64,000 nucleotides of DNA from Sulfurospirillum sp. 1612. Its GTDB lineage: Bacteria; Campylobacterota; Campylobacteria; Campylobacterales; Sulfurospirillaceae. The notes beneath the pieces are model-generated. The model saw nothing but the letters and a program-made list of their open reading frames with translations. It was not told the DNA's origin and did not search any database. How positions within the stretch are numbered: the first letter of the stretch is position 1; every line of letters begins with the position of its first letter. The DNA is taken from positions 434,001 to 498,000 of the forward strand of contig NZ_CP140614.1 in the NCBI RefSeq assembly GCF_036556685.1. The letters are read 5' to 3'. Positions 26,121 to 29,154 of this stretch are shown piece after piece. Both the position numbers and the translations under genes were made by a program.

Positions 26121-27140
26121 ATGTCAAAAATATTAGTAGCAATGAGCGGAGGTGTCGATTCTACCGTAACCGCGTATAAATTAAAAGAGGCCGGTCATGA
26201 TATACAAGGCGTGTATATGAGACTTCACAATGACGAAAAATCACATGAAGAAAATATCCGAAAAGTGAAAAAAGTATCTGAATTTTTAGGTATTCAGTAT
26301 CATGTTTTGGATATCCGCGACAGATTTAATGAATTTGTTTATATGCCTTTTGTAAAAAAATATGAACAGGGAATGACCCCCAATCCGTGCGCTTTGTGTA
26401 ACAGAAATATAAAATTCGGGGCTTTGATTGATTTTGCAAAAGAACTCGGTATGGATAAATTGGCGACAGGGCATTATGTGCAAGTTGTCGATGGATTTAT
26501 CAAAGAAGCCGTTGATAAGAGCAAAGACCAAAGCTATTTTCTTGCCAATGTCAAAAAAGAGAATCTTGATTTTGTCACCTTCCCTTTAGGTGAAATGTAC
26601 AAAGAAGATGTCAAAAAGTTTGCCAGTACGATTAGCGTACTAGAAGAGTTTGCCACACAAAAAGAGAGCAGTGAGATTTGTTTTGTCGATACTACCTACA
26701 TCGATGTTTTGAAAAAACATATTGATACTCAAAAACCCGGTCATGTTTTGAACACAAAGGGAGAAGTGGTCGGTGAACACAAAGGCTACATGCACTACAC
26801 CATAGGAAAACGTAAAGGTTTTAGTGTTAAGGGTGCGTTGAGTCCGCATTATGTCATTTCAACCAATCCAAAGACCAATGAAATTGTTGTGGGAGAAAAG
26901 CAAGATCTAGAGACGCAGTGTTTTGTTGCAGAAGATACGAATATGTTCATCACTGAAACAGAATTCGAGTGTTCGGTGAAAATACGCTATCGCAGCCCTA
27001 AAAGTCCTTGTCATGTTACCATTAGAGACAATAAAGCTGAAGTCTCACTCAAAGAGCCCCTTCAGGCACTAGCAGCAGGCCAAATGGCCGTATTTTACGA
27101 TGGAGCGCGTGTTATTGGGAGCGCTTGGATTGTGAAATAA
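26121..27140 (+). CDS. mnmA: tRNA-specific 2-thiouridylase
   Basis: ATP-dependent enzyme that thiolates U34 of tRNA Lys, Glu and Gln. It is 339 aa: the PP-loop SGGVDST at 9-15, the catalytic Cys in [12 protein letters not shown] (about 90-101), and the second Cys in SSEICFVDT (about 188). The C-terminal barrel ends in the expected QMAVFYDG and SAWIVK. It stands alone, downstream of the fliY terminator. Confidence 0.96.
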
Positions 27141-27234: not shown

Positions 27235-29154
27235 ATGGATATAAAAAAACTTAAACTCTCAACGATGTTCTCGATTATGTTTGCAGGAGCTTTTATTCTA
27301 ATTTCTGCAATTTTTTACTATTATGGCTATGTCAAAGAGAAAGAGTCTCTCACTCAAAATTTAAAATCTCAAGGTACTTCAGTACTCAATTTTGCTGATG
27401 TTCTTCTAGAATCTCGAAACGAAAAATTCTTTGGTGGTACCTCCACAGAAGTACCACAAGTCATCCAAAATGAAGTGTTTGAAAAATTCACAAAATTATC
27501 CAAAGGGAAAGTATTTTTTAAAGAAGCTTCCAATAATCCGACCAATGAAAAAAATAAAGCAACGCCTTATGAGAGTAAAATCATAGAAATATTTAAAAAT
27601 AATCCACAACTCAAAGAGTATGAACAAAACATCAAACATCTCAATAAAGATTATTATCTTCTTGCCCGTCCGATTGTCGCAGAAAAAAGATGCCAAATGT
27701 GTCATCCGACATGGAATGCCGGTGAAGTCATTGCGATTGAAGATGTCAAAATCGATTTGAGTGATTTTGATGTGGATATCAAGGATAATCTCATCTTGAC
27801 CGTAGCAACCGGTTTGATTAATATCATCATTATTTTGTTATTAACCTACTTTTTATTCAAACGCTATGTTGCCAAACGGATTGCCAAGTTATTAGAGGTG
27901 ATTATGAGAGTCGAAAAGGGTAATTTTGTCATTGATGATATTCTCGAAGATGAACCCGTTGATAATGGCAAAAGTAAAAATGAAATTGACCAACTCTTTA
28001 AACATCTCAAAGATATGGTTAATACGCTCAAACCGGTCATTGAAAACGTTGTAGCTGAGAGTAAGCACATGGCTTTTAATGCTAGTTATGGCTATGTGAA
28101 AGTGGATCGTACGAATGAACATGTGAAAGATCAGCACGTGGCATTGCAAACGTCTCAAAAGAAACTCAAAGAGATATTTGAAGACAATGCACTCATGCAA
28201 AAGACGCTCACACATATGTTAGATAGTTCTCAAAATTCGAAAATCGTAGTACAAAACAGTCAAACAGAAGTATCCAAAAATCTCGAACAAGGTTTAGAAG
28301 CGGCTTCTTCCATGGAAGAGACGACCATGACCGTACAAGATCTCAAAACATTCTCAGATGAAATCTCTAAGATGATGGACATCATCTCTGATATCGCAGA
28401 TGAAACCAATCTGATTTCTTTAAATGCCGCCATAGAAGCAGCACGAGCGGGAGTACACGGTAGAAGTTTTGCGGTTGTTGCGGATAAGATTCGAGAACTA
28501 GCAGAAGTATCTCAAAAGAATGCCGATGATATTGGTGAAGTCTTGAAAAAAATCAATAAACAGATTGACAATGTTTCTCAAAGTGCCCAACGCTCTAAAG
28601 AGAGTGTCATCTCCTTGGCGGATAGCTCTAAAATTATCGATAAAAACTTTGAAGAGATACGCGATAGTTTTGATTTGATTTCAAAATACCTCAATGATTT
28701 TAATGTACAATTCACACAAGAGTCAAAAGTACTAGATGAGATGCATAAAGAACTCGAAAATGTAGATGAAACGAGCAATGTATTAGCCAAAAATGCAGAA
28801 GAGACAAAAGATATCATGAAAGACACCGCTGAGAAAAGTGCCTCTTTAAAAACATTGGCGGATGGATTTGAAATCGTTTTAGATAACCGACAAGCCAAAC
28901 GTACGGTTGTGACGCCACCAATGAAAGCACGTGATATCAAGTCACGCAGTCTTTATATCTTTGATATTTCACAAAGTGGTATTGCTTTTTATGATGTAGA
29001 CCCAAGTATTGTTAGAAATCAAGGTGATGTGATTACCATCTTGACAGATGATACTATAGCGGGTGTTTCAGAATTTAAGTGTAAGATTATCTATGTGAGT
29101 GAGGATACCATCAAAGATATTCATTTTTATGGAGCAGAACTTTTAAATGCCTAG
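27235..29154 (+). CDS. Chemoreceptor with c-type heme motif and C-terminal PilZ domain
   Basis: Methyl-accepting chemotaxis protein of 639 aa. In order: TM1 (about 12-33); a periplasmic domain (about 34-186) resembling the Tll0287-like/DUF3365 sensor family, with a c-heme motif CQMCH at residues 153-157; TM2 (about 187-208); a HAMP-like segment; a coiled-coil signalling hairpin whose tip contains [15 protein letters not shown]; and a C-terminal domain (about 552-639). The last domain starts RQAKR (552-556) and continues to DISQSG (577-582), which match the R-x3-R and D-x-S-x2-G c-di-GMP motifs of PilZ. No CheR-docking pentapeptide is seen. Likely job, by inference: sense redox state or a gas through heme and tune motility with c-di-GMP. 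Confidence 0.9.

Follow-up and report, generated by a model that had tools for sequence, protein, structure and literature searches.

A Campylobacterales chemoreceptor family with a periplasmic heme-c motif and a C-terminal PilZ domain

Chemoreceptors that end in a PilZ domain are known from Azospirillum brasilense, where both Aer (AZOBR_p280026; PMC6406031) and Tlp1 (as summarised in PMC13401364) carry one. Like the receptor described here, Aer joins a redox-type sensor to the PilZ tail, but it senses through a cytoplasmic PAS domain whose presumed cofactor is FAD. PilZ-lacking Aer mutants are altered in aerotaxis, and the domain is needed for normal aerotaxis (PMC6406031). Tlp1 differs in having no typical oxygen-sensing domain (PMC13401364), and neither protein has been described with a periplasmic heme-c Cache domain. 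In Cbp1 of Azorhizobium caulinodans, an MCP (methyl-accepting chemotaxis protein) module is likewise followed by PilZ with the same RxxxR and DxSxxG motifs, and the protein binds c-di-GMP with a KD of about 15 uM, abolished by R320A; unlike our receptor, it is soluble and is reported with neither a transmembrane region nor a sensor domain (PMC6454048).

The sensor half has its own precedents. GSU0582 and GSU0935 of Geobacter sulfurreducens and DcrA of Desulfovibrio vulgaris are chemoreceptors with periplasmic heme-c sensors, but no PilZ is mentioned for them (0 occurrences in PMC8396549); the two Geobacter proteins have been placed in the sCache_heme family (PMC12889525). More generally, a 2026 preprint (PMC12889525) shows DUF3365/Tll0287 to be a Cache domain that carries heme c, with Campylobacterota among the groups in which it is enriched. 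A HAMP-linked sCache_heme protein of P. azotoformans shares with our receptor the domain family, the two transmembrane helices and the lack of an axial Cys, and has a HAMP domain where our receptor gives a sub-threshold HAMP match, but is described without an MCP domain, and PilZ goes unmentioned in that source (PMC12889525). These reports bear out two background statements of an original prediction made from the sequence of this locus, namely that Tll0287-like/DUF3365 domains can bind c-heme and that some receptors, such as Tlp1, carry PilZ (Aer and Cbp1 being further cases).

Because Aer already combines FAD-PAS with PilZ, the meeting of redox taxis and c-di-GMP is not new as a concept; only the heme-c/PilZ pairing is. 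The original prediction knew of no described receptor with both parts, and we likewise found none with MCP, PilZ and DUF3365 in the literature searched, although most subscription journals lay outside that search and absence from it is no proof of novelty. Searches for a C-terminal PilZ with heme, or for PilZ in Epsilonproteobacteria/Campylobacterota, returned nothing on this receptor. With each half individually known in chemoreceptors, what appears to be new is that sensor and tail are paired, that an order has conserved the pairing, and that single parts have been lost in the pattern described below.

The window analysed is a stretch of 64,000 nucleotides from Sulfurospirillum sp. 1612 (NZ_CP140614.1, positions 434,001 to 498,000). 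Within it, a 639-aa open reading frame encodes a chemoreceptor that spans the membrane and has its Tll0287/sCache_heme domain in the periplasm, arranged as follows (window coordinates).

27235..29154, + strand: whole chemoreceptor gene, from the ORF list and translation (639 aa, ATG start); member of a 29-protein orthologous family
27256..27324, + strand: transmembrane helix 1, about residues 8-30, by hydropathy
27331..27795, + strand: periplasmic Tll0287-like/sCache_heme sensor domain, residues 33-187 (PF11845 E 8.8e-14; model pLDDT 91; top PDB match 5b82)
27415..27432, + strand: RNEKFF motif at residues 61-66, which probably forms part of the distal heme pocket (R61, N62, K64, F65 and F66 invariant in 24/24 heme-bearing members with data)
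27691..27705, + strand: CQMCH, predicted heme-c attachment motif, residues 153-157 (CxxCH in 25/29 family members)
27790..27858, + strand: transmembrane helix 2, about residues 186-208, by hydropathy
27856..28029, + strand: HAMP-like linker, residues 208-265 (sub-threshold: PF00672 E 7e-4, 20.3 bits against 25)
28297..28770, + strand: MCP signalling hairpin, residues 355-512 (PF00015 E 1.1e-31)
Within the MCP hairpin, about residues 376-425: kinase-contact tip (mean identity 79% across the family)
28867..29151, + strand: PilZ domain at the C terminus, residues 545-639 (Pfam PilZ matched by 9/14 orthologous tails, the best at 8.3e-6; model matches VCA0042, Z 10.7)
28888..28902, + strand: RQAKR, predicted RxxxR c-di-GMP-binding motif, residues 552-556 (RxxxR in 27/27)
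28963..28980, + strand: DISQSG, predicted second c-di-GMP-binding motif, residues 577-582 (D and G in 27/27, S in 26/27)

Alignment column mapping places CQMCH, RQAKR and DISQSG exactly where the original prediction had put them, and the two transmembrane helices that it drew around CQMCH are clear by hydropathy (peak windows starting at residues 8 and 186). The MCP hairpin that it named is equally evident. Against Pfam, the full-length protein exceeds the cut-offs for the Tll0287-like domain (52.6 bits against 24.1) and the MCP signalling domain (110.4 against 34.6), matches HAMP weakly, and returns no PilZ, so annotation at Pfam thresholds would give a heme-type MCP and overlook the tail. 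On the reverse strand, the ORF list holds only frames of up to 120 aa within the gene.

Sequence profiles of the sensor and of the tail against the PDB gave no meaningful relatives, which made fold comparison necessary; profile matches to Hsp83, FapR and bitiscetin were set aside as chance. A model of the periplasmic domain built from 14 orthologues matches best, within the PDB, Tll0287, itself a heme protein (5b82; 135 residues aligned, Z 14.6, rmsd 2.8), followed by other Cache and chemoreceptor sensors at Z 10.9 and lower. Together with the PF11845 match, this upholds the original assignment of the domain as Tll0287-like. The sensor is the most conserved part of the protein outside the MCP tip, with a mean identity of 61%.

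Loss of CxxCH among orthologues, which the original prediction had named as a finding that would count against it, is confined to four members forming a single clade. Every heme-bearing orthologue with data keeps R61, N62, K64, F65 and F66, and likewise, alongside the CxxCH residues, P146, P158 and W160. The CxxCH-less clade also lacks RNEKFF and P146, and this co-loss suggests that RNEKFF serves the heme, although the whole region is shorter there and a loss shared by one clade counts as a single observation. The host genome contains a ResB-type frame of 1057 aa (cytochrome c maturation). From the motif and its conservation, we infer that the sensor domain carries a covalent heme c.

The tail alone scores below the Pfam cut-off for PilZ (PF07238; E 0.018, 15.8 bits against 22.5). 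When orthologous tails are scanned singly, 9 of 14 match Pfam PilZ (E <= 1), the best at 8.3e-6. The tail model has pLDDT below 50 over its first 17 residues and good confidence from about model residue 21; its top 22 PDB rows are all PilZ-type chains, led by VCA0042 (Z 10.7 and 10.6), with PA0012, MotI/DgrA, YcgR, Alg44 and BcsA among the further matches. Fold and orthologue matches thus agree with the original reading of the tail as PilZ. In the model, RxxxR immediately precedes strand 1 and DxSxxG occupies the turn that joins strands 2 and 3, the same strand positions at which these motifs are known in PilZ domains. Both RxxxR and D-x-[SN]-x-x-G are present in 27 of 27 PilZ-bearing orthologues, retained even though the tails share only about 37% mean identity. 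Shuffled versions of the tail hold both motifs in order in 0.2% of trials. Neither these motifs nor the conserved CxxCH are chance occurrences. The tail is accordingly presented here as a putative c-di-GMP-binding domain. Weaker matches to the PilZ tail (E 1e-6 to 1e-3) were discarded as relatives, those read being different proteins, neither MCPs nor family members.

The orthologues form a discrete family (n = 29), assembled by searching relatives, the class, and the order with the PilZ tail. Members score at least 584 bits with the family HMM, and the next protein scores 173. All 29 members found lie in Campylobacterales, the source's own order, the searches beyond it being a single-protein scan of genome contigs, which found no relatives, and an alignment-based scan that was seeded on the MCP tip and so returned a flood of generic MCPs. 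LepA of the host is 86-89% identical to that of genomes in its own family, 80% to that in a Hydrogenimonas-labelled record and 73% to that in a record labelled Campylobacterales, in keeping with a place in this order. In one even draw across the order, the PilZ tail is strong in 21 of 249 genomes; the family is therefore patchy, yet spread across several taxonomic families. Receptor-bearing genomes include single-contig assemblies.

PilZ is present in 27 members, CxxCH in 25 and both in 23. The two PilZ-less orthologues (L020 and L148) end where PilZ would start, and one genome (G064) has both forms, a full receptor (L016) and the PilZ-less paralogue L148. In the four CxxCH-less orthologues (L021, L170, L171 and L172), the periplasmic domain is shortened while PilZ and both its motifs are kept; this clade may have switched to a heme-free ligand. 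Neither part is thus indispensable to the receptor. On a tree, three label changes are needed: the PilZ-less pair falls in one supported group, and the four heme-less members form one group nested in a heme-bearing clade. The tree was quick and has long outgroup branches, leaving its root less sure than these groupings. Its simplest reading would be one old fusion of both parts followed by two losses, of PilZ in one clade and of the heme motif in another. These natural single-domain losses provide ready comparison receptors.

The original prediction's reading, redox or gas sensed outside and c-di-GMP inside, holds in its domain make-up, fold, motif conservation and family history. We consider it probable that the protein is a heme-based redox or NO taxis receptor tuned by c-di-GMP, and hence one with two inputs. 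Outside the cell membrane, the single Cache domain would carry heme c on C153 and C156, with H157 as proximal ligand. The distal side, with neither the Cys ligand of Tll0287 nor the Met ligand of GSU0935, would probably be lined by the invariant RNEKFF; being open or weakly ligated, it could respond to redox state or to a diatomic gas, for which NO is the best-precedented candidate. A change at the heme would reach the MCP hairpin by way of the second transmembrane helix and the HAMP-like linker, and alter CheA activity. Inside, PilZ at the C-terminal end of the hairpin would bind c-di-GMP through RxxxR and DxSxxG and shift the gain or bias of the receptor, in a direction that the model leaves free, such that a high-c-di-GMP cell gives a different answer to the same heme signal. 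The host genome has 29 GGDEF-domain places and six MCP-domain places, and the two-input reading gains support from these GGDEF domains because they could supply the messenger, and from the finding by Pfam of only one other PilZ protein beside them. Counting against it are the sub-threshold PilZ score of this protein, the orthologues that do without one part or the other, the lack of a conserved neighbourhood with c-di-GMP genes and, for NO, the cytochrome cd1 results given below. If it is correct, the chemotaxis kinase is informed by one molecule of redox or gas conditions outside and of c-di-GMP within the cell, which would offer a tractable case for the coordination of taxis and the sessile switch in Campylobacterales.

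The likely ligands bear on what the heme senses. The family alignment shows no conserved Cys in the periplasmic domain beyond CxxCH and no conserved Met, which leaves neither Cys/His ligation, as in Tll0287 (PMC12889525), nor Met/His ligation, as in GSU0935 (PMC8396549), available. In a by-eye, ungapped comparison, which is a lead and not a test, the Met-bearing stretch of GSU0935 aligns at R61/N62. The receptor has two traits of the Cluster 2 (NO-sensing) sCache_heme proteins, fusion to a signalling module (here MCP) and lack of an axial Cys. The HAMP-linked protein, which has no axial Cys either, holds NO tightly (its off-rate is slow) but gives no stable complex with O2 (PMC12889525), a precedent that by analogy favours NO. 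Overlapping with our preferred account is the alternative that the domain senses redox state only, the role proposed for GSU0582, GSU0935 and DcrA, and that NO is not its signal in the cell. This has a substantial chance of being right, though short of even. GSU0582 and GSU0935 bind NO and CO but have been interpreted as sensors of redox state, and their heme spin and ligation are thought to switch with redox potential, at -156 and -251 mV (PMC8396549); the invariant K64 might act as a redox-linked distal ligand. A PF02239 search of the host genome gave no hit to cytochrome cd1 at E <= 1e-40, leaving an NO source of its own by that route not evident. Against a purely redox role, the distal Cys and Met ligands linked to redox-type behaviour are absent, and the signalling-type relative without axial Cys acts as an NO sensor (PMC12889525). 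A link to denitrification, tested through PF02239, was not seen: strong cd1-type matches occur in 4 of 21 receptor genomes and 29 of 228 others (p = 0.50). On balance, we place redox and NO about level as the signal.

The tail could instead serve as a c-di-GMP-controlled tether for localisation or array assembly, moving the receptor into or out of the chemoreceptor array and leaving the heme domain as the sole true input. PilZ does follow directly on the C-terminal end of the hairpin, its sequences are more divergent than those of the sensor (37% against 61% mean identity), and two orthologues do without it. We nevertheless regard a tether as improbable, since every one of the 27 PilZ-bearing members retains both c-di-GMP motifs and PilZ-less Azospirillum Aer mutants are altered in aerotaxis itself (PMC6406031). 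Still harder to sustain is the view that one part is a degenerate relic, either a PilZ that has ceased to bind c-di-GMP or a heme site that stays empty: the receptor's PilZ score is sub-threshold and each part has been lost once in the family, but the motifs are invariant wherever the domain is retained, the sensor is so well conserved, and RNEKFF disappeared together with the heme motif, as expected had the site been in use.

Upstream of the receptor lies mnmA (26121-27140), with genes that by sequence resemble fliA, fliM and fliY also on that side; downstream, the opposite strand encodes a CHAD protein and an HxlR regulator, and beyond them come putative prs- and lepA-like genes. Around the orthologues we found no conserved operon and no conserved neighbourhood linking the receptor to c-di-GMP genes; their neighbourhoods differ, and the receptor therefore appears to be a stand-alone gene. 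GGDEF/EAL-type genes occur a few genes away in five orthologue loci (L130, L143, L145, L146 and L147; four genomes of family f17 and one of f6), a proximity that may be chance and is given no weight because such genes are so common. Matches to sigma-70-like promoters near the gene are within chance.

A Pfam PilZ search found one other PilZ protein in the host genome, a 376-aa ORF (L152:745-1872, + strand) whose PilZ domain (REFVR, DLSQNG) is C-terminal and whose N-terminal part matches nothing in Pfam; as the same search missed the receptor itself, other divergent PilZ domains could be missed too. Two further membrane proteins carry Tll0287-like domains. One is clear, with CLKCH as its CxxCH (L149:331-2112, - strand, genome C1 about 1562302), and the other lies below the Pfam cut-off, with CLLCH (L151:322-2007, - strand, genome C1 about 1193887). 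Both continue into HD-GYP-type HD domains and weak GGDEF, and are predicted to be heme-c sensors on c-di-GMP phosphodiesterase-like proteins. This sensor class thus probably feeds c-di-GMP breakdown as well as the receptor. More speculatively, and on our estimate rather unlikely, the class might form a loop, setting c-di-GMP through the two HD-GYP proteins and steering swimming through the c-di-GMP-reading receptor, so that redox or NO and the sessile decision would meet in one sensor class, with RNEKFF as a new distal heme pocket.

Finally, two MCP genes of the host genome (L003 and L005, each at 1439-2421) share 983 bp at 99.3% identity in the signalling half, while the remainder is unalignable; the shared half may reflect recent gene conversion or shuffling of output modules.
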